The translations under genes were made by a program, and so were the position numbers. Below are positions 1-17,346 of a stretch of DNA of 24,311 nucleotides, in pieces. Each line of letters begins with the position of its first letter. Position 1 is the stretch's first letter. The notes under the pieces were generated by a model. It was given only the letters and a program-made list of their open reading frames with translations, had not been told where the DNA came from and made no database searches. This DNA is from a virus, in the IMG/VR virus record IMGVR_UViG_3300035698_008469, positions 1 to 24,311 of that record; one strand, written 5' to 3'.

Positions 1-732
1 CGATTTACAAAGGATAACATTCACAAAGGCACACGGTATGCAGATTGGACGACCTGGAACATTACCAATAACGGTGAATCAAATGCACTTAAATCATTTC
101 AAGCAGCGGTTGCTAAAAGCATTGATGAGATTGCCATTGTTCCAGGTCTGGGCGACAAGCCTTTGCTATTAAATCAAAAAGGATTTTACGGCAACATGTC
201 AAAGCTGATGTTTCAATTCAAATCATTCATGTTTGCAGCGACCAACAGACTTTTATATTCAGGGCTTCAAAACCTCAACGACATTAATTTATATATGGGT
301 GTTGCTTCAATGACGGGGCTTGGTATGCTGGGTTATATATCATCCGGTGAACTTAGAGGTAATACAGAAGTTGACCTATCAGTTGGCAATCTTTTACGTG
401 AGGGTGTTGACCGAAGTGGAGTGCTTGGAATTGTTGGCGAAGGAATTAACATCGCACAAAAGCTTTTCCAATTAGGTGGCGTATCAAGGTACAAATCACG
501 CGATGCCTTTGGCTCTGTACTTGGCCCAACTGGTGGAAGTGCCTCACAGCTTGTACAGTTGTTCAATAAATTAAATCCCTTGTCCTCAGCAAAAGGCGAG
601 TGGACAACAAAAGATGCTGATGCCGTAATGCGGTTAATGCCCTTGCAAAATTTGTTTTACCTTAACAAAATATCAAGATCTATATCACACAATATTGCAG
701 AAGGACTTGGGGCGACGCCCGTTAATGACTAG
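1..732 (+). CDS. Internal virion protein, C-terminal end (T7 gp16-like), 5' partial
   Basis: The frame is open from the first base to the stop at 732, so this is the last 243 residues of a gene that starts outside the window. In T7-like phages the very large gp16-type internal virion protein is ejected through the cell envelope during infection, and it lies just before the tail fibre gene, as here. The visible part is helical, with a stretch rich in Phe and Met (around MFQFKSFMFAATNRLLY) and a hydrophobic Gly/Met-rich segment after it (GVASMTGLGMLGYI). An internal ATG at 163 exists but has no good ribosome-binding site. The family call rests on position and on the general look of the C-terminus. 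No catalytic transglycosylase domain can be seen because the N-terminal part is missing. Confidence 0.6.
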   Translation, partial: RFTKDNIHKGTRYADWTTWNITNNGESNALKSFQAAVAKSIDEIAIVPGLGDKPLLLNQKGFYGNMSKLMFQFKSFMFAATNRLLYSGLQNLNDINLYMGVASMTGLGMLGYISSGELRGNTEVDLSVGNLLREGVDRSGVLGIVGEGINIAQKLFQLGGVSRYKSRDAFGSVLGPTGGSASQLVQLFNKLNPLSSAKGEWTTKDADAVMRLMPLQNLFYLNKISRSISHNIAEGLGATPVND

Positions 733-2771: not shown

Positions 2772-3377
2772 ATGACGCAAGGATTTGTAAACGATAATTC
2801 AATACCATTGCCCGTTTCCGTTCTAAACGGCGGAACTGGTGTTACAACATCAACTGGCACAGGAAGTGTGGTTTTAAATAACTCGCCAACTTTTGTCACG
2901 CCTGATATTGCTGCCGCTCTTGCTGATAGCATCCAGTTTAATGACTATGCTACGGGTGGCATTTTAGGAACGACAACAAATAATGATGCGGCGGCAGGGT
3001 ATGTGGGAGAGGTTATATCATCATCTGTTTTGTCTTCCGTAGCAGTTACGCCTTTAAACGGTGTGGCAAAAAACATTACATCAATATCTGTTACCGCTGG
3101 GATTTGGGTTATTTCGGGCAATATATTCACATCCTTTTCAACCTCTGGAATTTATAGTGCAGGATGGATTAGCAGCACATCTGCTACAGCGCCAGATAAT
3201 TCAATAGTTAGTCGGTTTTATGCCAATACAGTCCCGTTAGTCAACCTTGGTTACGCTATTATGAATACGCCGTTATCTTTAACCGGAACAACCACATATT
3301 ATTTAACGGTTATAAATGGTTTTGGTAGCGGAACATCTGCATCGAGTGGCTATATATCAGCAAGGAGAATACGTTAA
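2772..3377 (+). CDS. Adhesin-like tail protein
   Basis: 201 residues. The N-terminus carries the 'LNGGTGVTTSTGTGSVVL' and 'NSPTFVTP' motifs that recur in phage tail fibres and tail spikes just before the receptor-binding part. The rest is low in charge, Ser/Thr/Gly-rich and probably beta-structured (jelly-roll-like); it ends in ISARRIR. GGAG lies 8 bases before the ATG. A 66-base AT-rich gap precedes the gene, wider than the other gaps in this cluster. The gene overlaps the next one by one base. It likely contributes to receptor binding, perhaps as a separate small fibre on the gp17-like adaptor. The receptor cannot be predicted. Confidence 0.7.
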   Translation: MTQGFVNDNSIPLPVSVLNGGTGVTTSTGTGSVVLNNSPTFVTPDIAAALADSIQFNDYATGGILGTTTNNDAAAGYVGEVISSSVLSSVAVTPLNGVAKNITSISVTAGIWVISGNIFTSFSTSGIYSAGWISSTSATAPDNSIVSRFYANTVPLVNLGYAIMNTPLSLTGTTTYYLTVINGFGSGTSASSGYISARRIR

Positions 3378-4030: not shown

Positions 4031-4291
4031 ATGAATTTTAGCATAGCGCTGGAGCAAATAAAGACAGGAAAATCATTGAAGCGTTCAGGGTGGAATGGAA
4101 AAAACCAGTTTGTTTTTCTAGTTCCAGGTTGGGAATTCAACGTGAACCGCGCTCCATTACTTGGCATATTCCTCGATGGGGATGATATTATCTGTCGACC
4201 GCATATTGATATGAAGTATCAAGATGGTCCTGTTGGCGTTTGGTCGCCAAGCATGGATGATTTGATGGCGGATGACTGGGAGATAAAATAA
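4031..4291 (+). CDS. DUF2829 / Tad2-family protein, candidate anti-Thoeris factor
   Basis: 86 residues, full length for the DUF2829 family (Pfam PF11195, now linked to Thoeris anti-defence 2). Family hallmarks are visible: an N-terminal helix ending in KSLKRSGWNGK (residues 15-24), a beta segment with FVFLVPG, then RPHIDMKYQDG (57-66) and the closing W-SPS-DDLMADDW block (71-83). Characterised Tad2 proteins bind and sequester the cyclic ADP-ribose signal made by the Thoeris TIR enzyme, so the effector is not switched on. Many DUF2829 members are untested, so this exact protein may bind another nucleotide or none. It has an AGGTG ribosome-binding site and sits alone between fibre and lysis genes, a common place for accessory genes in phages. 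Confidence 0.75.
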   Translation: MNFSIALEQIKTGKSLKRSGWNGKNQFVFLVPGWEFNVNRAPLLGIFLDGDDIICRPHIDMKYQDGPVGVWSPSMDDLMADDWEIK

Positions 4292-4394: not shown

Positions 4395-4574
4395 ATGAAA
4401 AATAAAGGCTTTGTTTTAATCCCCATAATTATTATTGCTGTTTGTGTTTTTGCAGGACTCGCAGCGATTATTGTCACTAAAAAAAACGACTCACCAATTG
4501 AGCAAACAGCCGAGGCTATTTTGCGCACTCAGGGGATTGATATTGATTTATCCCCAGATGATGAGTGCGGATGA
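4395..4574 (+). CDS. Small single-span membrane protein of the lysis region
   Basis: 59 residues: a short basic N-terminus (MKNKGF), one hydrophobic span at about residues 6-27 (VLIPIIIIAVCVFAGLAAIIV), KK after it, then an acidic tail with 'IEQTAEAILRTQGIDIDLSPDDE'. This tail pattern (EQ.AE.I...GIDIDL.P) is found in small phage membrane proteins next to endolysins. CGGAGA precedes the ATG. The frame stays open upstream, but those starts lack a site. It overlaps the endolysin start by 4 bases (ATGA), suggesting coupled translation. It might be a holin- or spanin-like helper. It lacks the two-gene Rz/Rz1 layout and a lipobox. Confidence 0.6.
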   Translation: MKNKGFVLIPIIIIAVCVFAGLAAIIVTKKNDSPIEQTAEAILRTQGIDIDLSPDDECG

Positions 4575-4969: not shown

Positions 4970-5313
4970 CTTTAAATCTTCCATACCCACCGAGCATTAA
5001 TCACTACTATAAACGGATTCTTCATGGAGTTGTTTTAGGGCCAAAAGGCCGCAAATACCGTGATGATATTATTTTACTTTGTCATAAGCACAAAGGGCGA
5101 TTTAATAAGGATATGCGCCTTGATGTGACGATCAATGCTTTTCCGCCTGACAGGCGCACGAGAGACCTAGACAATATCGTCAAAGCATGTCTTGACTCGC
5201 TTGAACACGCCGGAGTCTTTCCGAATGATAGTCAAATCGATCGATTAACAATCGTTAGGGGTGAGGTTGTGAAAGATGCGTATATAACAGTATCGATACA
5301 AGAATGCTCTTAA
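4957..5313 (+). CDS. rusA: RusA-type Holliday junction resolvase
   Basis: 118 residues, against 120 for Escherichia coli RusA. The catalytic aspartates D70, D72 and D91 and the essential lysine K76 fall at the same numbers as in E. coli RusA, inside PPDRRTRDLDNIVKACLD and GVFPNDSQID. The N-terminal LPYPPSINHYY is also typical. The dimer cuts four-way DNA junctions symmetrically. The gene overlaps both the endolysin gene (13 bases) and the large terminase gene (10 bases), so it is translated in the late packaging-lysis group rather than with the recombinase genes at 10810-12589. That suggests it resolves branched concatemers before or during packaging. Confidence 0.93.
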   Translation: MDVLTLNLPYPPSINHYYKRILHGVVLGPKGRKYRDDIILLCHKHKGRFNKDMRLDVTINAFPPDRRTRDLDNIVKACLDSLEHAGVFPNDSQIDRLTIVRGEVVKDAYITVSIQECS

Positions 5314-6659
5314 AACAAATTGATTTTTTTCAAGATATTTTCAACGCGTACCCCCATCAAAAAGAGTGGATGCTGGCCTTTTTTTCTGGCGAGTATGATT
5401 TTTTTATGGATAACGTTCATCGGCGAGGCGGTAAAGATGCGACTTTCTTTGCGACCGCGTGGCTTTTTTCGTCTATGGTGCGCGGCAATTATATCTATAC
5501 TCTTCCGAAGATAGCTCAAGCAAAAAACGTGATTTGGGAAGGTACAGACTTGGACGGTCGGCGGTGGGTTGATTTGATTCCAAGGCACTTATTATCTCGA
5601 CCCCCGAATCTTTCAGAGCGCAAAATATACTTTACATCCGGCTCGATGCTGCATATTACTGGGGCTGATAGTATATTGGGCGCGCATTTAGGCTCAAACT
5701 TGCGTGGCATATTCATGTCAGAATTTCAGCGCACAGCGCCGAATATATGGGATTATCTGCGTCCGATTATTCGCAGAAGCAAGGGTTTTGCGGCGTTTAA
5801 CTACACGTCATTCGGTCAGTGCTACGCGCACAATCTACGAGTCGCAAACAAAGATAATCCGAAATGGTTCACTCGCAAGCTGACTGTTGAACAAACTCGC
5901 GACAATGATGGAAATCACATCTTTTCGCCTGAGCAAGTCGAGGAAGAGCGGCGCAGCGGCATGGACGAGGATTTAATACAACAAGAGTACTATTGCGATG
6001 ACAGCGTTGCCGTCAAAGGAACGTACTTTGCAGAAGCTATGGCGCTTGCTGCGAAGGAAGGACGAATCGTTGAAGCGATGGAAATATTGCCAGGAAAGCC
6101 GGTTCACTCATCTTGGGATATCGGAAGCCGTGACACTAATTCAATTTGGTTCTTTCAGGTCGTTGGGGTTGGCGAGTCGCAAGAGTTTCGATACTTTTAT
6201 CAGCACGATGAGAATTACAAAGACATTGATTATTATCTCGCGTTGCTTGCAAAGATTCAAAGTCAGTACGGGTTTAGTCGTTACGGTCATCACTTCATGC
6301 CGCACGACATAGCGCAGACTGAGTGGACAACGGCAAAAACAAGGCTTGTGCGGCTGATGGAAAAAGGGCTTAAGGTTTCTTTGGTTCCGCGCCTTAAGGT
6401 CGTGGAGCGCGTCCAAGTAGCTCGCAGCAACTTAAAGCGGTGCTGGTTTCACAAAACCGGCTGCAAAAACGGTATTTTAGCGCTTGAAGCAAGTCGTGCT
6501 AAATACGATGAAAAGCTTAAGGCGCTTGGAACGGACGAGGTGCATGACTGGGCGTCGCATCCCAGCGCCGCGTTTCAGTACGGCCACGTGGGTTGGTTGG
6601 ACAGCTACAATCGGGCGCAGCTAGAACAGCAAAAGAGTTATGCCAGCTATAGACCTTAA
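5304..6659 (+). CDS. terL: Terminase large subunit
   Basis: 451 residues, normal length for the DNA-packaging motor. The ATPase part has a Walker A-like loop HRRGGKD (39-45) and a Walker B strand RGIFMSEF with E140. A coupling-type segment YTSFG lies near 167-171. The RNase H-like nuclease part shows candidate metal-binding aspartates D272 (SSWDIGS), D335 (MPHDIAQ) and D415 (EVHDWASH). It cuts concatemeric DNA and drives it through the portal into the prohead. The gene starts inside the end of rusA, and its stop shares bases with the stop of the oppositely directed gene 6656-7255. Confidence 0.93.
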   Translation: MLLKQIDFFQDIFNAYPHQKEWMLAFFSGEYDFFMDNVHRRGGKDATFFATAWLFSSMVRGNYIYTLPKIAQAKNVIWEGTDLDGRRWVDLIPRHLLSRPPNLSERKIYFTSGSMLHITGADSILGAHLGSNLRGIFMSEFQRTAPNIWDYLRPIIRRSKGFAAFNYTSFGQCYAHNLRVANKDNPKWFTRKLTVEQTRDNDGNHIFSPEQVEEERRSGMDEDLIQQEYYCDDSVAVKGTYFAEAMALAAKEGRIVEAMEILPGKPVHSSWDIGSRDTNSIWFFQVVGVGESQEFRYFYQHDENYKDIDYYLALLAKIQSQYGFSRYGHHFMPHDIAQTEWTTAKTRLVRLMEKGLKVSLVPRLKVVERVQVARSNLKRCWFHKTGCKNGILALEASRAKYDEKLKALGTDEVHDWASHPSAAFQYGHVGWLDSYNRAQLEQQKSYASYRP

Positions 6660-7255
6660 ACCTCTTTGAATCCGTCTTCGGTAACGCCAATCCTCTGCGC
6701 TTCTTCAACTGCTTTCAGTCGGTCTTCTGTCTCTACAGACTGTTTAACTTTCAAGCTTACATCAATTAAACCGCCAAGCTTGCTGGCTTCATCGGGTGTT
6801 AACTCACCTTCATCAACGGCACGCATCAAGCATTTGAGCATCTCTTTTTCATCTTTAGACTTGCCAAGGCCGCGCACTTTGACGCGCCGTTTGTCGGGAA
6901 TGTTAAATCGAGCGCTATACATGCGATTAAATAGGGCGTGATTAAGGCCGCTCATGCGCTTGTTTTCTAAGTCTATCTCTTGCTCAAGGTGCGAGTCTCT
7001 TAATTGGTCGTAGTAAGCTCTCGCGCAGTCGTGGGCAGCGTAGCAAGCGCGGTCAAATAGTTTGTGCCGTTTGCGCCATTTCTCAAAAGTGTCGTTACAT
7101 ATCGTGTGCCGTGCGCAGAACTGCGAGCGCGTCTTGCCTTCTGAAAACATATTGATTATTTCAAGGCACATCGAATCACGGTACTTGCTGCCCCATGGGT
7201 TAGTTGGATCGCTCAAATCTGGTACTTTATTGACCACCGTTTCTGCCCCCTCCAT
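6656..7255 (-). CDS. Probable terminase small subunit (DNA-binding)
   Basis: 199 residues with an N-terminal helix-turn-helix at about 30-66 (FSEGKTRSQFCARHTICNDTFEKWRKRH), followed by 'FDRACYAAHDCARAYYDQLRD'. This arrangement is typical of small terminases and related packaging proteins, in which the helix-turn-helix recognises pac or cos DNA. The C-terminal half is helical and charged. Position beside the large subunit supports the call, but it points the opposite way, which is unusual. The ATG at 7255 has a poor ribosome-binding site; a GTG at 7237, eight bases after GGAGGGGG, may be the true start. A DNA-binding regulator is the main alternative. Confidence 0.65.
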   Translation of the reverse strand: MEGAETVVNKVPDLSDPTNPWGSKYRDSMCLEIINMFSEGKTRSQFCARHTICNDTFEKWRKRHKLFDRACYAAHDCARAYYDQLRDSHLEQEIDLENKRMSGLNHALFNRMYSARFNIPDKRRVKVRGLGKSKDEKEMLKCLMRAVDEGELTPDEASKLGGLIDVSLKVKQSVETEDRLKAVEEAQRIGVTEDGFKEV

Positions 7256-8796: not shown

Positions 8797-9804
8797 TTAT
8801 TTAATCCCCATCTTTGCCTTTAGCTGCTTAAACCCGTCCGGCAAGTCACCTGCTTTTTTGACTGCGTTTCGGTACGCTTGGCCGTCATTATTGTAGTTTT
8901 CTTTTTTTGCGCGCTCATATTCTGCGTTCTTTCGGCTGAGATCCTCTTGCGCTTTCTGTCGCTTTTCGGCCTCTTGTTTCTGTAATTCGGAGGCCTTGGC
9001 CTTTCTTTCAAGCGCGAATTTATTTCGGTTGAAAATTTCGTCCTCCCATCCTGGGCTATCTGGGTTTAGGTATGTTGCTGGGTGAGCCGCATATCCTTCG
9101 ACCCAATGACTATCTCCCTTTCTTTTTTCGATGTCGTCAATTATCAAAGCAAACAATTCATCATCTGGATTTAGTCGAAGCCATGTTTTATAAGCATGAG
9201 CGGCTTTTTTTCTCACAGGATAGGCGTTGTAAAACTGCATGAACCTTTCGTCTTTTGAATATGTTTTTTTAGAATAATCCTTTTTATTTTTCGTGGCCTT
9301 TGGCGCAGCCGAGGCCAAAATAGAGTTGTATTCTTCTGTAGTACTCTTCTGTTCTTTATATGAAACGGACAAAGTGGCCGTTTCAGAGTCGGCCAAAGTG
9401 GCCGGATGGGGCATTTTTTGACCAACGGACAAATTGGCCTGTTGGGTCAGTAATTGATCAATCGAATTGAGGACGTTGTCGAGTTTTGGCCTACACCATA
9501 AAGTATTAATTCCGCGCACTTTTTTAACCTTGGATTCACAAAAACCCATGTCTTCTAAAATCCTTAGAGAGCGCCTCAATGTCCTTTCAGGGATTAAAAT
9601 CTCATCGAGCCATTTTTCATATGTTTTATAAAACCATCCGTTTTGCCCAACGGTTGATTTGTTCGACCAATAAATTATTTGGTTTAAGATGCTGGCTTTT
9701 TTATACGAGCCTGTGATTTGTACATAAATTCGGGGAACGGTGAGGATTTGATCTTGCCCTGAAAATCCGGCTAAAAGAAGTTTGTTTAAATTTGAGCTAT
9801 CCAT
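8797..9804 (-). CDS. Replication initiator, lambda O-like layout
   Basis: 335 residues. Residues about 20-110 form a winged-helix-like DNA-binding region (ILNQIIYWSNKS, then LIPERTLRRSLRILEDMGFCES). A linker at 111-185 is Ser/Thr/Lys-rich. Residues 187-258 carry the 'FMQFYNAYPVRKKAAHAYKTWLRL...HWVEGYAAHPATYLN..GWEDE' block seen in phage O-type and similar replication proteins. The C-terminus (262-310) is a charged coiled coil. It likely binds the origin and recruits the host helicase. The linker DNA holds three iteron-like repeats (9366-9439), as lambda ori lies inside gene O. AAGGA precedes the ATG. It follows the cro-like gene and a small gene in one leftward operon. No helicase or loader gene is visible nearby, so host DnaB/DnaC may be used. 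Confidence 0.78.
   Translation of the reverse strand: MDSSNLNKLLLAGFSGQDQILTVPRIYVQITGSYKKASILNQIIYWSNKSTVGQNGWFYKTYEKWLDEILIPERTLRRSLRILEDMGFCESKVKKVRGINTLWCRPKLDNVLNSIDQLLTQQANLSVGQKMPHPATLADSETATLSVSYKEQKSTTEEYNSILASAAPKATKNKKDYSKKTYSKDERFMQFYNAYPVRKKAAHAYKTWLRLNPDDELFALIIDDIEKRKGDSHWVEGYAAHPATYLNPDSPGWEDEIFNRNKFALERKAKASELQKQEAEKRQKAQEDLSRKNAEYERAKKENYNNDGQAYRNAVKKAGDLPDGFKQLKAKMGIK
9366..9439. other. Candidate replication origin: three iterons inside the initiator gene
   Basis: The 14-base unit CGG(A/C)CAAA(G/T)TGGCC occurs at 9366-9379, 9390-9403 and 9426-9439, with starts 24 and 36 bases apart. An AT-rich and A-rich stretch lies next to it (about 9240-9360). Lambda-type origins have iterons within the O gene plus an adjacent AT-rich region, and this matches. 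Caution: the repeats are in the same codon phase (ANLSVG, ATLADS, ATLSVS), so a short protein repeat is the alternative reading. Confidence 0.5.
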
Positions 9805-10141: not shown

Positions 10142-10330
10142 TCAATCACTTGATAAAAAGTCGCCCGTTATAATAAGCCGTTCAACATGATACAAAGCTT
10201 GAATAAAACCTTCTGAGCGCTCTTTCATCCCAACAGTTATCATCTTTGCGTTATCTATCTTGGTGTGTTGCTCAAAGATTAATTCGCTAATGCTTGCAAG
10301 TAACCTGTTTTTATCGATTGTGGTTTCCAT
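10142..10330 (-). CDS. Small helical protein, 62 residues, in the cII-like position
   Basis: The frame could start at 10351, but GAAGGA lies just before the ATG at 10330 (METTIDKNRLLASISELIFEQ), so that start is preferred. The protein is helical, with an MKERSEGFIQALYHVERLI segment, and shows no clear helix-turn-helix. It lies between the cro-like gene and the replication gene, where lambda has cII. Nothing in its sequence shows that it is a regulator. No family recognised. Confidence 0.6.
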   Translation of the reverse strand: METTIDKNRLLASISELIFEQHTKIDNAKMITVGMKERSEGFIQALYHVERLIITGDFLSSD

Positions 10331-10359
10331 GTCATCCTTCAGTTGCTCCATTGTGATGC

Positions 10360-10487: not shown

Positions 10488-10700
10488 TCAACCACAGACA
10501 GCTCGCTTACGCTTCGGCTTTTCTTTGTCTTCCCATACTGCTACTAAAGCAGATTCAGTTAAATATTCAATCTTTTTCTGTGAAACAAATGGAATAAATC
10601 CGGCTTTTTCCCAATTTGTCAGCGTGTTATCTGACATTCCAGTTAACTTATGGAAGTTATAACCAGTTTTGTAATACTTTCTTATCTCTGACGGTTTCAT
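10488..10700 (-). CDS. Cro-like transcriptional repressor
   Basis: 70 residues from the ATG at 10700, with AAGGG five bases before it; a GTG two codons upstream is less likely. The first 45 residues form a helix-turn-helix of the Cro type (MKPSEIRKYYKTGYNFHKLTG, then SDNTLTNWEKAGFIP), followed by SQKKIEYLTESAL and a basic tail (KEKPKRKRAVCG). This pattern occurs in short phage Cro proteins of Gram-negative hosts. It is the first leftward gene after the divergent promoter region and probably binds it to lower both early promoters. No CI partner gene is seen in the window. Confidence 0.72.
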   Translation of the reverse strand: MKPSEIRKYYKTGYNFHKLTGMSDNTLTNWEKAGFIPFVSQKKIEYLTESALVAVWEDKEKPKRKRAVCG

Positions 10701-10728: not shown

Positions 10729-10758
10729 ATTGTATCACAATTACTTGCGTTAGCTCAA
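10729..10758 (-). promoter_or_regulatory. Leftward early promoter (cro-replication operon)
   Basis: On the minus strand TTGAGC (10753-10758) is followed after 18 bases by TACAAT (10729-10734), just upstream of the cro-like gene. Its -35 lies within three bases of the -35 of the rightward promoter, so the two promoters are back to back and probably regulated together. Confidence 0.6.
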
Positions 10759-10774
10759 TGCATTGCGATATAAT
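10745..10774 (+). promoter_or_regulatory. Rightward early promoter (recombination operon)
   Basis: TTGCGT (10745-10750), 18 bases, then a perfect TATAAT (10769-10774), 35 bases before the exonuclease ATG. The spacer contains the 10-base palindrome CAATGCATTG (10756-10765), a candidate repressor site. Confidence 0.65.
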
Positions 10775-10791
10775 GCAGCCTGTTGAGCTAA
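10750..10791. promoter_or_regulatory. Candidate operators: 9-base inverted repeat flanking the -10
   Basis: TTAGCTCAA (10750-10758) and TTGAGCTAA (10783-10791) are perfect inverted copies 33 bases apart. They cover the -35 zone shared by both promoters and the start region of the rightward transcript. This suits a repressor that binds two half-operators or loops DNA; the cro-like protein is the natural candidate. Confidence 0.5.
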
Positions 10792-10809: not shown

Positions 10810-11697
10810 ATGAAAGTTTTTGAGGATGGTGTTTATGACATACCAAACGAGGTATATCATTCCAGCGCTGGCGTTAGCAGAAGCGGGTTGTGGGCGTTAA
10901 AGCGTTCGCCGTTCCACTATTGGGATAGATACATCAATCCAGATCGCGAACCGCAAAAAGAAACGTCAGCAATGAAGTTAGGCAGCTTGGTGCACACCAT
11001 GGTTTTAGAGCCGGATGAGTTCTTTAAACGCTACGCTATGCCGTTAGAGCTTGAAGAAATGCCGCCAGCGGTTTTAAAAAAGGACGTTGGGGCGTATGTT
11101 TTTGAAGCTGCGAAAGAGGCTAGAAGACTCACAAAAGAGATTAATGACCAAAAGCGTGAAGAGCACTTAATAAACAACCAGGGAAAACAGATAATAACGG
11201 CGGCGGAATATGAATACACAAAGACGCTGGCCGATGCGGTTTTGCGCGATGGTGTCGCAAAATATCTTTTCGGTGATGAATCCAAGGTTGAGCAAAGCAT
11301 ATACTTTACCCACGAAAAAACGGGCATTCAGTGCAAAGTGCGCCCTGACGCTTGGCTGGGATCTATTGTTACAGACTTAAAGACGTGCAAAGACGCGAGT
11401 TATAGACCGTTCCAGAGTTCTGCATTTAGTTCGGGGTACTTCTTGCAAGCAGCAATGATAAAATGCGCCATCGAATCAATCGGAATGGACCTTGAGCGGT
11501 TCGTTTTCTTCTGTGTTGAGAAAACAGACGGTAACGCGACCGTGCATTACGAAGTCGATGACGATGCAATGGAGCACGGCTTAAACCAATTTGATTGGCT
11601 CATGGAAAATTTCGCATGGTGCCAGCTAAATAATCAGTGGGGTTCTTACGAGTCTCGACCCTTATCACTTCCAGGTTACGCAAAATACGAGGATTAA
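10810..11697 (+). CDS. RecE-like exonuclease (PD-(D/E)XK, DUF3799 type)
   Basis: 295 residues. The N-terminal 'YDIPNEVYHSSAGVSRSGLWALKRSPFHYWDRYI' and 'LGSLVHTMVLEP' (58-68) are typical of the DUF3799/PDDEXK-like phage exonuclease group. Catalytic residues fit E161, D180 (VRPDAW), D189 and K191 (TDLKT), with the supporting GYFLQAAMIKCA helix (209-220) carrying Q213. It would resect double-strand ends 5' to 3', giving single strands for RecT. AAAGGGG precedes the ATG. First gene of the rightward early operon, five bases before recT. Confidence 0.88.
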   Translation: MKVFEDGVYDIPNEVYHSSAGVSRSGLWALKRSPFHYWDRYINPDREPQKETSAMKLGSLVHTMVLEPDEFFKRYAMPLELEEMPPAVLKKDVGAYVFEAAKEARRLTKEINDQKREEHLINNQGKQIITAAEYEYTKTLADAVLRDGVAKYLFGDESKVEQSIYFTHEKTGIQCKVRPDAWLGSIVTDLKTCKDASYRPFQSSAFSSGYFLQAAMIKCAIESIGMDLERFVFFCVEKTDGNATVHYEVDDDAMEHGLNQFDWLMENFAWCQLNNQWGSYESRPLSLPGYAKYED

Positions 11698-11701
11698 AAA
11701 A

Positions 11702-12589
11702 ATGAACCAACCAGCACGAACACAAAAGCAACAGATGGTCGCGTCTAATCAAAAATCAATACGTGGACTGCTTGAAAGCATGAAAAGCGAAATCGCCAGA
11801 TGCTTACCGAAGCATTTAACGCCGGATAGGATGGCGCGGATTGCTATGAGCGAGCTTAGAAAGTCGCCCAAGCTCTCGGAATGTGACCCAATGAGTTTCA
11901 TAGCTGCAATCATGCAGGCCTCACAGTTGGGATTAGAGCCTGGAATAATGGGCGCTTGTTACTTGATACCGTTTAACAACAACAAGACTGGAAAAGTCGA
12001 GTGCACTTTCATGCCTGGTTATCGTGGGTTTTTAGACCTTGCGAGGCGTTCCGGTCAAATTAAATCGCTGGTCGCTCGCGCAGTGTATGAGCATGATGAA
12101 TTTACGTTTGAGTATGGATTGACTGAGAGCATAACCCACAAGCCCTGCATGACCAACAAAGGCGCTTTGATTGCGGTTTATGCGGTCGCGCTGCTTAAAG
12201 ATGGCGGCCACCAATTCGAGGTTATGAGTCGTGAGGACGTTGAGAGAATCCGCGATACTTACTCGAAAGCTAAAAACACAGGGCCGTGGGTTACTGAGTT
12301 TGAAGAGATGGCGAAAAAAACCGTGCTGCGCAAAATGTTTAAATGGCTGCCGTGTAGTGTCGAAATGCAAAAAGCGGTTAGTTTTGACGAACAACAACAA
12401 AACGGCACGCAAAACATCAAAGAGGCCGCTTCCGATGAGTTTGGTTTTGATTTTATTGAGCATGAGGCCGAACCAACTGACCAAAAGCTGAGCGTTAAAG
12501 AGCTTGCGAACAAACAAAAGGCCGCGCCAAATCCGTTTAGTCTTGAGTACGACCCCGAAACAGGCGAAGAAATACCAAAAGGATTGTAA
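11702..12589 (+). CDS. recT: RecT-family single-strand annealing protein
   Basis: 295 residues, close to 269 for E. coli RecT. The RecT core is clear: MSFIAAIMQASQLGLEPG (64-81), ACYLIPFNN (85-93), FMPGYRGFLDLARRSGQI (103-120), and the AVYEHDEFTFEYG and 'EEMAKKTVLRKMFKWLP' segments. It anneals complementary strands and pairs with the exonuclease encoded just upstream. The C-terminus ends in a short NPFSLEYDPETGEEIP tail. GAGGA lies before the ATG. The recombination pair probably makes concatemers and recombines incoming DNA. Confidence 0.95.
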   Translation: MNQPARTQKQQMVASNQKSIRGLLESMKSEIARCLPKHLTPDRMARIAMSELRKSPKLSECDPMSFIAAIMQASQLGLEPGIMGACYLIPFNNNKTGKVECTFMPGYRGFLDLARRSGQIKSLVARAVYEHDEFTFEYGLTESITHKPCMTNKGALIAVYAVALLKDGGHQFEVMSREDVERIRDTYSKAKNTGPWVTEFEEMAKKTVLRKMFKWLPCSVEMQKAVSFDEQQQNGTQNIKEAASDEFGFDFIEHEAEPTDQKLSVKELANKQKAAPNPFSLEYDPETGEEIPKGL

Positions 12590-12591
12590 AA

Positions 12592-13398
12592 ATGAATGAA
12601 TTAGTCGTAATTGAAAAAACCGAAGCAATGGATATTTTTACTAATCGCGAATTGATATCGCCGTTGCTCGATAAAATACAAAGCTTGACCTTGGTTGGCG
12701 AGCAGGACACAACAACGGACAAGGGGCGCAAAGCAATTGCGTCTCTTGCTTATCGTGTTGCGCAATCCAAAACATATATTGAAACGCATGGCAAAGAGAT
12801 TGCAGCGCAGCTTAAAGAATTGCCAAAGCTTGTCGACAAAAACCGAAAGTTTGCCCGTGATTTTTTAGATAATCTTAGGGATGAAATAAGGCGCCCTTTG
12901 ACTGATTGGGAAAATGAGCAAGAGGCGATTAAGTTAAAAAAGAAAATAGAGAGCGATCACGAAGACGCTTTAATAATGAACGTTGACTGGACAATCTATA
13001 AAGAAAAAGAGAAGGCGCGGCAAGAACAGGCGCGGCTGGAATATGAAGCAAAGGTTTTAATGGAGGCACAGGCGCGCGCAAAAGAGGAGGCTAACGAAAA
13101 GGTTAGGCGTGAACTAATCGATGCGGAGGCGCGCGTTTTGGCTGCTCAGAACGAAACATCGAGAGCAAAAGACATCGCAAAAAAACAGTTTGAAGAAAGA
13201 CAGGAAAAAGAAAACCGCATCAAGAAAGAGCAAGAAGAATCTAGGAGCAAAAAAAAACAAGCTCATGACAACATTGTCAAAGTTCACGACTCTATTTTAA
13301 GCGATTTTATTAACATCGGTCTTAATGACGCGCAAGCTAAGTACATTCTTGATGCTGTTGTTGAGGGGAGGGTTAAGGCGTTGAGGGTTGAATACTAA
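12592..13398 (+). CDS. Coiled-coil protein of the recombination operon
   Basis: 268 residues. Residues 1-110 are a helical domain (DKGRKAIASLAYRVAQSKTYIETHGKE) that recurs in phage proteins beside RecT. Residues about 120-235 are a long, Lys/Glu/Arg/Ala-rich coiled coil. The C-terminus is a small globular helix pair (IGLNDAQAKYILDAVVEGRV). Such proteins are often labelled TolA-like because of composition, which says nothing about function. Tight spacing (two bases) after recT and AAGGA before the start suggest a role in the same process, perhaps as a recombinase or single-strand DNA partner. Confidence 0.7.
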   Translation: MNELVVIEKTEAMDIFTNRELISPLLDKIQSLTLVGEQDTTTDKGRKAIASLAYRVAQSKTYIETHGKEIAAQLKELPKLVDKNRKFARDFLDNLRDEIRRPLTDWENEQEAIKLKKKIESDHEDALIMNVDWTIYKEKEKARQEQARLEYEAKVLMEAQARAKEEANEKVRRELIDAEARVLAAQNETSRAKDIAKKQFEERQEKENRIKKEQEESRSKKKQAHDNIVKVHDSILSDFINIGLNDAQAKYILDAVVEGRVKALRVEY

Positions 13399-13622
13399 TG
13401 CTTCCAAAATCGGTCAGAGACATGCGGCAAGAGGGAAAGAAAAGCTTACTTGCGGCAAAGCGAGTGATTAAGCTCATGGATGCTAATCTATCGAGCAATG
13501 ACCCCGACAAAATATGCGTTGCATCGGCTTTTTTACAAATTCTTAAGCATCATATGGAGGAAGGGGATTTGAAAGACAATAACCTAGTTTTAGCAGTAAT
13601 GCTTAGAGGTGATTTAACTTAA
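13398..13622 (+). CDS. Unknown helical protein, 74 residues
   Basis: Begins by stop/start overlap with the coiled-coil gene (TAATG). Basic N-terminus (MLPKSVRDMRQEGKKSLLAAKRVIKLMD) and helical second half. Alpha-helical throughout, no membrane span. It is the last gene before the reversed gene at 13674-13859. No family recognised. Confidence 0.6.
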   Translation: MLPKSVRDMRQEGKKSLLAAKRVIKLMDANLSSNDPDKICVASAFLQILKHHMEEGDLKDNNLVLAVMLRGDLT

Positions 13623-13659
13623 AAAACTGTCGCAAGACGATGAGACAAAACGCTTGCGA
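13618..13659 (-). terminator. Leftward rho-independent terminator
   Basis: On the minus strand TCGCAAGCG pairs with CG-T-CTTGCGA (stem ends 13630 and 13659, one bulged T), followed after three bases by TTTTTT. It starts 15 bases after the stop of the leftward gene 13674-13859. In the rightward direction no T-run follows, so the operon can read through. Confidence 0.7.
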
Positions 13660-13673
13660 TAGTGTAAAATGGG

Positions 13674-13859
13674 TTATCTAAAATTGTATTGCTCATTGCG
13701 CTGGTTATCCTGTAGTGCTGTGTTTATTAGTTCGATTACAGCATCGATTATCTCAATGTGTAAGAAGTCGTTTGCTATCGCCAATACATCGCGAATAACT
13801 CGCGCTATATCTTTAATCAAGCGAACGGGGTCGGGGGGCTGGAAAAATCGAACGGCCAT
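13674..13859 (-). CDS. Reversed 61-residue gene, moron-like unit, function unknown
   Basis: Starts MAVRFFQPPDPVRLIKDIARV, with AGGAG eight bases before the ATG. Two amphipathic helices (RLIKDIARVIRDVLAIANDFL and IEIIDAVIELINTALQ) are separated by a short turn, and the tail is Asn/Gln/Arg-rich. It has no signal peptide or cysteine. The rightward frame over the same DNA lacks a ribosome-binding site, so this strand is preferred. It has a promoter upstream (13892-13921) and its own terminator (13618-13659) and points against the surrounding operon. This is the classical layout of a phage moron, often a host-altering or immunity gene. The amphipathic helices could fit a membrane-active or protein-binding peptide. 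Confidence 0.65.
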   Translation of the reverse strand: MAVRFFQPPDPVRLIKDIARVIRDVLAIANDFLHIEIIDAVIELINTALQDNQRNEQYNFR

Positions 13860-13891
13860 TTTATAACTCCTGTTTTAGTGGAATCACTTTA

Positions 13892-13921
13892 ATTATAGTT
13901 TATTTATTTAATAACAAACAA
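13892..13921 (-). promoter_or_regulatory. Leftward promoter of the reversed gene
   Basis: On the minus strand TTGTTT (13916-13921), 18 bases, then a perfect TATAAT (13892-13897), 33 bases before the ATG at 13859. The surrounding DNA is very AT-rich. It also overlaps the upstream leader of the rightward gene at 13936. Confidence 0.6.
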
Positions 13922-13935
13922 AAAGGTGGAAAATT

Positions 13936-14304
13936 ATGCAAAGCAAATCATTCGCGGCAAAGGTGGAGATTGACAAGATAAAGCTTGTTAAAGGCATTGC
14001 GGAATCGATTAATATTAAGTTTTTAGAATGCGGTGATATGCCGGACAACATCGTTGATGCTTGCTATGTGGCCACTCGTTTACTACGGAATGTCTCAGAG
14101 TGCGTAAAAGAAATGTCAGAGCAAAAAGCTTCGATTTTTGAACTGATTAGCGCATTAAATCTTGATGAAAATTTCAAAGATGAGATCGAGGTTGCTGGAA
14201 AAGACTTCTTAAACAAAGTAAAGCTGGATGAAGATATGCCGGATTTTTTAAAAGTTTTTCTTGAAAATGCGATTGAAAGAAAGCTAAAGGAAATGAAAGA
14301 ATGA
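13936..14304 (+). CDS. Unknown helical protein, 122 residues
   Basis: Starts MQSKSFAAKVEIDKIKLVKGIAES with AAAAGGTGG before the ATG. All-helical and charged; second half 'DENFKDEIEVAGKDFLNKVKLDEDMPDFLKVFLENAIERKLKEMKE'-like in composition, with several Phe and Leu. Two cysteines lie in 'LECGDMPDNIVDACYVATRLLRN'. It overlaps the next gene by ATGA. No family recognised. Confidence 0.65.
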   Translation: MQSKSFAAKVEIDKIKLVKGIAESINIKFLECGDMPDNIVDACYVATRLLRNVSECVKEMSEQKASIFELISALNLDENFKDEIEVAGKDFLNKVKLDEDMPDFLKVFLENAIERKLKEMKE

Positions 14305-14444
14305 TGCGATATATATTGCTCGTTTTAGTTATCTGCCTGGTGGTGATGAACGTCCTTTATGCGGATGACGAGTATGACGATTGCACAACTAAATGTCATT
14401 ACGACAAAGACGGCAATTACATTTGTCAGGTTAGGTGCGTTTGA
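14301..14444 (+). CDS. Small secreted protein with paired CX3C motifs
   Basis: 47 residues. Residues 1-21 are a signal-peptide-like segment (MMRYILLVLVICLVVMNVLYA) with a likely cut after YA. The mature part would be about 26 residues, acidic at its start (DDEYDD), with four cysteines as C-x3-C (28, 32) and C-x3-C (42, 46). Two CX3C pairs at this spacing suit a disulfide-locked helical hairpin in the periplasm. It overlaps its upstream neighbour by ATGA, which supports coding. Function unknown. An exported phage peptide made outside the lysis group may alter the envelope or block superinfection. Confidence 0.6.
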   Translation: MMRYILLVLVICLVVMNVLYADDEYDDCTTKCHYDKDGNYICQVRCV

Positions 14445-15446: not shown

Positions 15447-15682
15447 CGCGCAAGAAATCAAGTGGGGAAGCATCTGGAGCGGCTAGGGATGCAAGCAATA
15501 GCTCTGGAATACCGACACCAGGCACAATCGTTTCAAACAATACAGATGCTTCTAACGATGACGCACAGCGTGAAAAGAAAAAAGCGCAGCGATTATTAAT
15601 GCGATCAATTCGCGCCGGTGGTGCTGGTTACTTTGAAACGGACAAAGGTACGATGCTGGGTGGCAGTGGGGCAATCGGATAA
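15443..15682 (+). CDS. Low-complexity pre-portal protein, 79 residues
   Basis: N-terminal 45 residues are Ser/Asn/Ala/Gly/Thr-rich and likely disordered, followed by a basic helix (QREKKKAQRLLMRSIRAGG) and a Gly-rich end (GTMLGGSGAIG). ATGA overlap upstream and TAATG overlap with the portal gene. Similar small proteins precede portal genes in podoviruses and may be minor head components. Confidence 0.55.
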   Translation: MTRKKSSGEASGAARDASNSSGIPTPGTIVSNNTDASNDDAQREKKKAQRLLMRSIRAGGAGYFETDKGTMLGGSGAIG

Positions 15683-17346
15683 TGGTTGATTATCGAAAGG
15701 CAATGAATAAAAGAGACAACACGAACCTTTTTGACCAAGTAAAAAAAGAAACAAAAAAGGCTCTCGATGTTAATGCTGTTTGTGACATGCGCACAAAAGC
15801 CAAAAGCGATTTGGATATGTGGCGCAGTTTGTTAGAAACGACCTATCACTACGCAATGCCAAACTATAACCCCTTTGTGAATTTCGGTCTTGCTGGTGCC
15901 GTCACGCCAGGCCAGCAATACAATGCGAATATTTATGATTTGACGTTGCCAATAGCGCAAAAAAAGCTTGCTGATAAAATGTTGATGAGCATGGTTCCAC
16001 AGGGTGCTCAGTGGGTTAAGTTCGTGCCTGGTGATGTGTTTGGCGAGCCAGATACAGATTTGTATCAAGAAGCTTTGATCGCTACTCAGCGCATGACAGA
16101 CCATTTTTTCAAAATCGTTGACCGCTCAAACTTTTACCTAGCTGTTTCCGAAGCGCTTCCTGACGCTTTGATTTCAACCGGTGTCATTGCGGTTAATGAA
16201 GGAAACCGAAAGGATCCAATTAAATTTGAGTCAGTGCCAGCAAGTCATGTGATGTTTCAAGGTGACGCTGAGGGCAAAGTTGATGGTATTTTTAGAGATT
16301 GGTATCAAATCAGAGTACAAAACATTAAATCAATGTGGTCTGACGCAAAAACGGATTGTCTAAAAGACAAAAAGCCGACTGATAAAATAACAGTTTACGA
16401 ATGCGCTTGGATTGATTACGAGAAAGACGAAAAAAGTAAATACCAATATGTGGTAATGACCGACCAAAAAGACGTAATGGTACATCGCGAATCAAGCTCT
16501 TGGCCTTGGGTTGTGTTTAGAATGCGGAGACTGACCGGTGAGGTGCGCGGTCGTGGTCCAACGATGGACGCAACACCAACAGCGGCAACGATTAACAAGG
16601 CTTTGGAGGATGAGTTAATCGCGGCAGCGTTTCAAGCTAACCCGATGTATATGGCAGCTAGTGATTCAGCATTTAATCAAAAAACATTTACTCCGCGCCC
16701 TGGTTCAATTGTTCCCGTCCAATTAATTATGGGTGAGTTTCCGATTAAAGCGTTTGAGCAATCGGGTAATATTCAGTTCAACGCGCTGCTTGTGAACGAC
16801 TTTAGACAGCAAATCAATGAACTTATGTACCAATCGCCATTGGGTCAAGTAAACGCGCCAAATCGCACAGCGACAGAAGCCGAAATCAGATACACGGAAA
16901 ACTTAGAAAGCTTTGCGGCCATGGTTCCACGACTTCAAAATGAGTTTTTCATCCCCATGATTCAACGAATTTTGTGGGTGATTAACAAAGTCGTGCCGGA
17001 AACTTTTGCATCGATTCCAGAAGAGATTCGCGGAAAACTTTTGTCGGCTGACGGTCAAATCGTAGGGCTTGATTTCGATACGCCGCTAATGACATCTAAG
17101 GGCAAGATAAAAACAGGCGCACTTGTTGGATTCTATCAATCCATTGCGTCCATGGTAGGGCCGGAAGCTGCTACAGCCGCTCTTAATCCCGTTAATCTTA
17201 TCCAGGGCATTGCTGAGAATGAAGGCATTGACATTCGCAACATTAAAACACGAGAAGAGCTAGAGCAACTAGAACAAACCGCCGGAAGCATGGCGCAACA
17301 AGAAGCAGAAAACCAAGGGATAAATATTGATGAACAACAAGAGTGA
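15682..17346 (+). CDS. Portal (head-tail connector), T7 gp8-like
   Basis: 554 residues, against 536 for T7 gp8. Recognisable features are the early 'YHYAMPNYNPF' segment, 'PIAQKKLADKMLMSMVPQGAQWVKFVPGD', the 'RGRGPTMDA..TAATINKALEDEL' stretch near residue 290, 'ANPMYMA', and the C-terminal 'NRTATEAEIRYTENLESFAAMVPRLQNEF' helices. The C-terminal tail is acidic and Gln-rich (QEAENQGINIDEQQE). Twelve copies would form the ring through which DNA is packaged and to which the tail attaches. Translation is coupled to the preceding gene. Confidence 0.93.
   Translation: MVDYRKAMNKRDNTNLFDQVKKETKKALDVNAVCDMRTKAKSDLDMWRSLLETTYHYAMPNYNPFVNFGLAGAVTPGQQYNANIYDLTLPIAQKKLADKMLMSMVPQGAQWVKFVPGDVFGEPDTDLYQEALIATQRMTDHFFKIVDRSNFYLAVSEALPDALISTGVIAVNEGNRKDPIKFESVPASHVMFQGDAEGKVDGIFRDWYQIRVQNIKSMWSDAKTDCLKDKKPTDKITVYECAWIDYEKDEKSKYQYVVMTDQKDVMVHRESSSWPWVVFRMRRLTGEVRGRGPTMDATPTAATINKALEDELIAAAFQANPMYMAASDSAFNQKTFTPRPGSIVPVQLIMGEFPIKAFEQSGNIQFNALLVNDFRQQINELMYQSPLGQVNAPNRTATEAEIRYTENLESFAAMVPRLQNEFFIPMIQRILWVINKVVPETFASIPEEIRGKLLSADGQIVGLDFDTPLMTSKGKIKTGALVGFYQSIASMVGPEAATAALNPVNLIQGIAENEGIDIRNIKTREELEQLEQTAGSMAQQEAENQGINIDEQQE

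Follow-up and report, generated by a model that had tools for sequence, protein, structure and literature searches.

In an uncultured podovirus-like virus, a short reversed reading frame between recT and the portal gene is, with a probability that we put at roughly 0.6, a real small accessory gene that is autonomously transcribed, has a moron-like architecture, and most likely targets the host or rival phages. The 61-residue product has no known relatives, but the architecture and position of the gene are of a known kind. The window (the whole stretch of DNA analyzed here) is a linear IMG/VR record of 24,311 bases from an uncultured virus. Its relevant features are as follows.

5304-6659, plus strand: large terminase
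8797-9804, minus strand: DnaD-like replication protein
10745-10774, plus strand: candidate early promoter of the rightward exo-recT operon, TTGCGT-18-TATAAT
10750-10758 and 10783-10791: perfect 9-nt inverted repeat TTAGCTCAA, 24 nt apart, overlapping the early promoter
10810-11697: exonuclease, part of the rightward exo-recT operon
11702-12589: RecT, part of the same operon
13398-13622, plus strand: upstream gene, 74 aa, convergent with the orphan gene
13621-13663, minus strand: intrinsic-terminator-like hairpin, arms 13663-13653 and 13636-13626, T-run 13626-13621
13674-13859, minus strand: 61-aa ORFan frame MAVRFFQPPDPVRLIKDIARVIRDVLAIANDFLHIEIIDAVIELINTALQDNQRNEQYNFR with two predicted helices, ATG at 13859, stop at 13674-13676
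13867-13871, minus strand: Shine-Dalgarno AGGAG, 7 nt 5' of the ATG
13892-13921, minus strand: candidate sigma-70 promoter TTGTTT-18-TATAAT, predicted transcript start at about 13885
13936-14304, plus strand: downstream gene, 122 aa, diverging from the orphan gene
15682-17346: podovirus-type head-tail connector (PF12236)

Genome Setting and Relatives

All clear genes run rightward from 10810 up to the virion genes, and the preliminary description had claimed that a leftward gene sits inside this operon. The 61-codon frame is indeed present on the minus strand, in a reversed segment placed between the 74- and 122-residue rightward genes. Elsewhere in the window, a small-terminase-like gene (6656-7255, minus strand) is convergent with the large terminase and overlaps its end, an arrangement also present in the relative contig L002, and a Tad2-like protein (PF11195, Thoeris anti-defence 2-like; E = 7e-22) is encoded at 4031-4291 on the plus strand. 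A 47-residue frame at 14301-14444 (plus strand; CTTKCHYDKDGNYICQVRC) has four cysteines and a hydrophobic signal-like N terminus, features suggestive of a small exported protein; a family search with it gave zero matches.

Syntenic relative contigs were obtained by RecT and portal searches. L004 has the exonuclease, recT, and a 61% identical homologue of the 13398 gene in conserved order; its DNA similarity to the window stops at about 13612, and its next gene overlaps the 13398 homologue by ATGA, with no space for a leftward gene. L004 therefore lacks the segment, and it is the sole relative in this presence/absence comparison that keeps the upstream gene. Its next gene is unrelated to 13936-14304, so that the comparison leaves a clean insertion between two orthologous neighbors unproved. 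L012 has a remote relative of the 13936 gene immediately after recT (24% identity, pairwise E = 5e-7) and, two genes further on, one of the 13398 gene (28% identity). Searches for extra copies of the flanking genes returned only the known relative or nothing, and no flanking direct repeats of at least 8 nt were found at the segment ends. The orphan gene itself is absent from every relative examined, that is, from 20 related phage contigs and the fetched loci. A 64-residue frame in L027 (2682-2876), considered as a leftward counterpart, was rejected because it is antisense inside a real gene.

The recT-to-portal stretch of these phages has a varied content. Homologues of csrA (PF02599), phage-borne global regulators, lie in it in L013 (564-749, plus strand) and L030 (3705-3893, plus strand). 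In L012 it holds a Tad2-like gene (2911-3171, plus strand; PF11195, E = 4e-21) and a leftward HNH-like gene whose HNH match is slightly short of the cut-off; the Tad2-like genes of the window and of L012 occupy different genome places. On the contigs compared, the contents of the stretch are shuffled between phages, and the csrA, HNH-like, and Tad2-like genes in the relatives mark it as an accessory slot. When we sought a host assignment by prophages, the only genome match was L040, a phage-like contig of 31 kb whose portal is related (57%); it is binned in a Candidatus Nitrosotalea MAG and is probably a mis-binned phage.

The Candidate Early Switch and the Phage Lifestyle

L002 shares the exonuclease, recT, small terminase, and terminase with the window, and it carries a tyrosine integrase adjoining the replication gene together with a P22-Cro-like protein; judged by these gene contents, the phage family includes temperate members. 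An integrase and an HTH_3 repressor were looked for in the window, a 24.3-kb fragment, and neither was matched; the integrase is missing from most relatives too. Upstream of the exonuclease, the inverted repeat TTAGCTCAA at 10750 and 10783 looks like an operator, and the frame at 10488-10700 (minus strand) may be Cro-like by position and resemblance, the Pfam Cro family not being matched. The 10745-10791 region and the Cro-like frame beside it constitute a candidate lysis-lysogeny switch. No exact copies of TTAGCTCAA lie near the orphan gene or in its promoter; one-mismatch copies are modestly above chance in number, and the closest is at 13748, within the orphan frame.

The orphan promoter thus appears, from the placement of these repeats, to lie outside the early switch. 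Because it lacks the inverted repeat of the early promoter, we infer that host sigma-70 RNA polymerase would transcribe the orphan gene without phage factors. A host-polymerase promoter outside early control would leave the gene on while the rightward operon is silent, whether in a prophage, in a carrier state, or in the first moments of infection. Rightward read-through would make antisense RNA and so turn the orphan gene down, and such wiring would suit a gene that serves lysogens or the carrier state.

A factor-independent promoter within the early operon could instead belong to a lytic-programme gene for regulation or host takeover, whose tiny protein is made from a strong host promoter upon DNA entry and serves the life cycle of the phage itself, not the lysogen as an accessory. 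The lack of an integrase in the fragment and in most relatives fits this reading, as do the csrA regulators that relatives carry in the same stretch. Yet a gene that is missing in all relatives examined is no conserved part of a programme, and an immediate-early gene needs no opposed orientation, in which read-through yields antisense RNA. We therefore consider a lytic-programme role unlikely.

The Terminator-Like Hairpin and Its Two Strands

The hairpin and T6 reported just 3' of the orphan stop codon were both found, the run comprising six T residues when the last paired T is counted and TTTTT otherwise. The hairpin begins 10 nt beyond the stop codon on the minus strand and has a stem of 11 positions with one mismatch and a loop of 16 nt. 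The minus-strand RNA folds with -12.8 kcal/mol, corresponding to z-scores of -3.5 to -4.1 with short flanks and -2.2 with longer flanks. A terminator-like hairpin of -12 kcal/mol or lower, on either strand, arises in 5.5% of shuffles of the gap, and the hairpin/T-run pattern, which was defined post hoc, has one exact match in the window and 0 in 100 shuffles. The further claim that the T-run exists only on its own strand, leaving the operon uncut, also holds. On the plus strand the hairpin is followed by GTGTAAAATGGG, and there is therefore no plus-strand intrinsic terminator; a bidirectional terminator was rejected for want of a T-run on that strand. The TAA stop codon (13620-13622) of the rightward gene upstream lies partly within the minus-strand T-run, and the leftward mRNA, predicted at about 265 nt, would therefore halt at the end of that gene before entering it.

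The stem folds better on the plus strand (-17.1 kcal/mol) than on the minus strand that it should serve, the imperfect position being an A x C mismatch on the minus strand and a G.U pair on the plus strand. As a sequence prediction, this stronger fold would allow the hairpin an additional or another function in the rightward mRNA. It would favor an RNA element, either a leftward regulatory RNA or a hairpin that processes or stabilizes the 3' end after 13398-13622, with the frame being incidental, and the hairpin does lie 3 nt beyond the stop codon of the upstream gene. Against both forms of this proposal, an Rfam search of the window gave no match, the plus strand carries no U-run, a single wobble pair in a single sequence is weak evidence, and the frame has coding-like codon usage and a strong ribosome-binding site. 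We consider an RNA element, in either form, improbable.

Evidence that the Frame Is a Gene

The frame and its ribosome-binding site support the reading of the segment as a protein-coding gene. AGGAG is present at 13871-13867, and its 7-nt spacer to the ATG bears out the distance given in the preliminary description. Only 2 of the 45 non-annotated ATG frames of at least 45 aa in the window have a strong Shine-Dalgarno sequence. When the 313-nt gap is dinucleotide-shuffled, 5.1% of the shuffles contain an ATG frame of at least 61 aa, and 0.28% contain one of at least 61 codons with a Shine-Dalgarno sequence. Under a codon usage model trained on the genes of the window, the frame scores +0.082 bits/codon, which falls among the values of short real genes (-0.07 to +0.27) and exceeds the scores of 41 of the 45 unannotated frames; of the few with scores as high, several (10142-10351, 4395-4574, and 10488-10700) resemble real genes. 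The frame antisense to the orphan gene scores -0.153, and the plus-strand frame 13669-13866 was rejected as the true gene on this score and its lack of a ribosome-binding site.

Upstream, the promoter boxes that had been pointed out are in place, TTGTTT at 13921-13916 and TATAAT at 13897-13892 with an 18-nt spacer. Sites with TTGnnn, 18 nt, and an exact TATAAT occur in the window only here (13892-13921, minus strand) and at the early promoter (10745-10774, plus strand), and TTGnnn-16..18-TATAAT turns up in 0.48% of cases when the 76 nt upstream are shuffled. A promoter-like match at 9 or more of 12 positions is found in 29% of those shuffles. A rule-based scanner detected neither the orphan-gene promoter nor its terminator because the -35 box agrees with the consensus at 3 of 6 positions and the loop measures 16 nt. 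As sequence evidence, the promoter and terminator alone are weaker than the frame. The three elements ordered on one strand are hard to obtain by chance, even allowing for a scan of the whole window, and these chance levels together with the codon usage scores lead us to regard the 61-codon frame as a real gene. A chance frame with chance motifs in a non-coding spacer, which would draw on the 5% frequency of the frame alone, the commonness of 9/12 promoter matches, and the failure of the standard scanner to detect either signal, is highly improbable given the rarity of a frame with a Shine-Dalgarno sequence, the independent and proper placement of promoter and terminator on the same strand, the coding score, and how unusual an empty 313-nt spacer would be in so compact an operon.

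The Predicted Protein and the Search for Homologues

The protein had been described as two amphipathic helices of no recognized family, and both parts of this description agree with our data. The AF2 single-sequence model is a helix-turn-helix hairpin with helices at residues 11-29 and 35-60 (mean pLDDT 70, pTM 0.39). Hydrophobic moments show helix 1 to be clearly amphipathic (P = 0.0014) and helix 2 weakly so (P = 0.03-0.05). Short and slightly acidic, such a helical hairpin would probably oligomerize or bind a partner.

The collections searched yielded zero relatives. PHROGs and NCBIfam gave zero matches, and Pfam returned only DUF592 with E = 0.04, which failed its cut-off and was taken as chance. 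The HMMs of PADLOC-DB (anti-phage defence families) and tblastn against 50,697 phage records gave no match at E<=1, and tblastn against plasmids and a PDB sequence search gave zero. No relatives were found in viral contigs or bacterial genome contigs, the peptide was absent from the whole contigs of the 20 related phages, and a permissive phmmer search of six frames of all fetched loci produced nothing with E<1. Pattern-based collection scans detect close relatives only, so the absence of homologues speaks for close relatives. Foldseek of the model against BFVD and the PDB gave zero significant matches, as is expected for a low-confidence helical hairpin.

Comparison with Morons

Morons usually consist of one coding region with a promoter and a terminator at its flanks, inserted between genes that are adjacent in relatives and usually differing from them in nucleotide composition; some morons are expressed from a repressed prophage (PMC4378225). 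The orphan segment contains a single coding region with a ribosome-binding site and coding-like codons and, at the sequence level, its own terminator, the -12.8 kcal/mol hairpin with a T-run on its own strand. TTGTTT-18-TATAAT is present as a candidate promoter, 9/12 matches being common by chance. L004 is without the segment, but its downstream neighbor is another gene, and L012 has its relative of the 13936 gene elsewhere in the stretch. The usual, optional difference in composition is lacking: G+C is 42.5% in the orphan frame, 41.7% in the upstream genes, and 43.0% in the window, and the promoter stretch (21%) is the sole part of the segment that differs. The moron layout put forward in the preliminary description is thus upheld for the single reversed ORFan with its own signals in a variable stretch but not for the G+C content, which matches the neighbors. 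By these sequence features, the orphan gene is probably a moron in the formal sense.

Three described genes offer comparisons. The P22 moron pid, a reversed ORFan of 86 aa, occupies a variable site and has both a Shine-Dalgarno sequence and a Rho-independent terminator (PMC3573128). The orphan gene resembles it as a small ORFan opposite to its neighbors with a Shine-Dalgarno sequence and, at the sequence level, a 3' terminator of the Rho-independent type; pid differs in position, being a gene of the P22 late region, and in the carrier state it lifts the repression of the host dgo operon. JBD26 tab is a minus-strand moron of 83 aa with its own promoter, active from the prophage, that blocks tail assembly of other phages (PMC10884400). 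It too is a small minus-strand orphan at an accessory position of a rightward operon, and its own promoter has a predicted counterpart at the orphan gene; it differs in separating the terminase genes of its phage, a Mu-like Pseudomonas phage, and in having an adjacent counter-gene. No similarity to Pid or Tab was detected by tblastn at E<=1 in the 50,697 phage records, in which the P22 and JBD26 entries were not individually confirmed. A further parallel is STMMW_20121 of ST64B, an accessory locus that has a promoter of its own and runs antisense to lytic genes of the prophage; its transcription was shown by RNA-seq, whereas that of the orphan gene is predicted (PMC7067206).

Implications

By such precedent, the most likely guess is that the protein is directed at the host or at competing phages, as an inhibitor, decoy, or exclusion factor. 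More specifically, and as a tentative proposal of which we are doubtful, it may be the founding member of a new family of phage mini-proteins that block competing phages or host defence in the prophage state and are silenced by antisense read-through once the early operon fires. Small reversed ORFans in phage operons have repeatedly proved to be host-modifying or phage-excluding, as with pid and tab. If expressed, the orphan gene would provide a compact candidate protein without known relatives. Together with the csrA, HNH, and Tad2-like genes found there, it would point to the recT-to-portal stretch as an accessory slot of this uncultured phage group.
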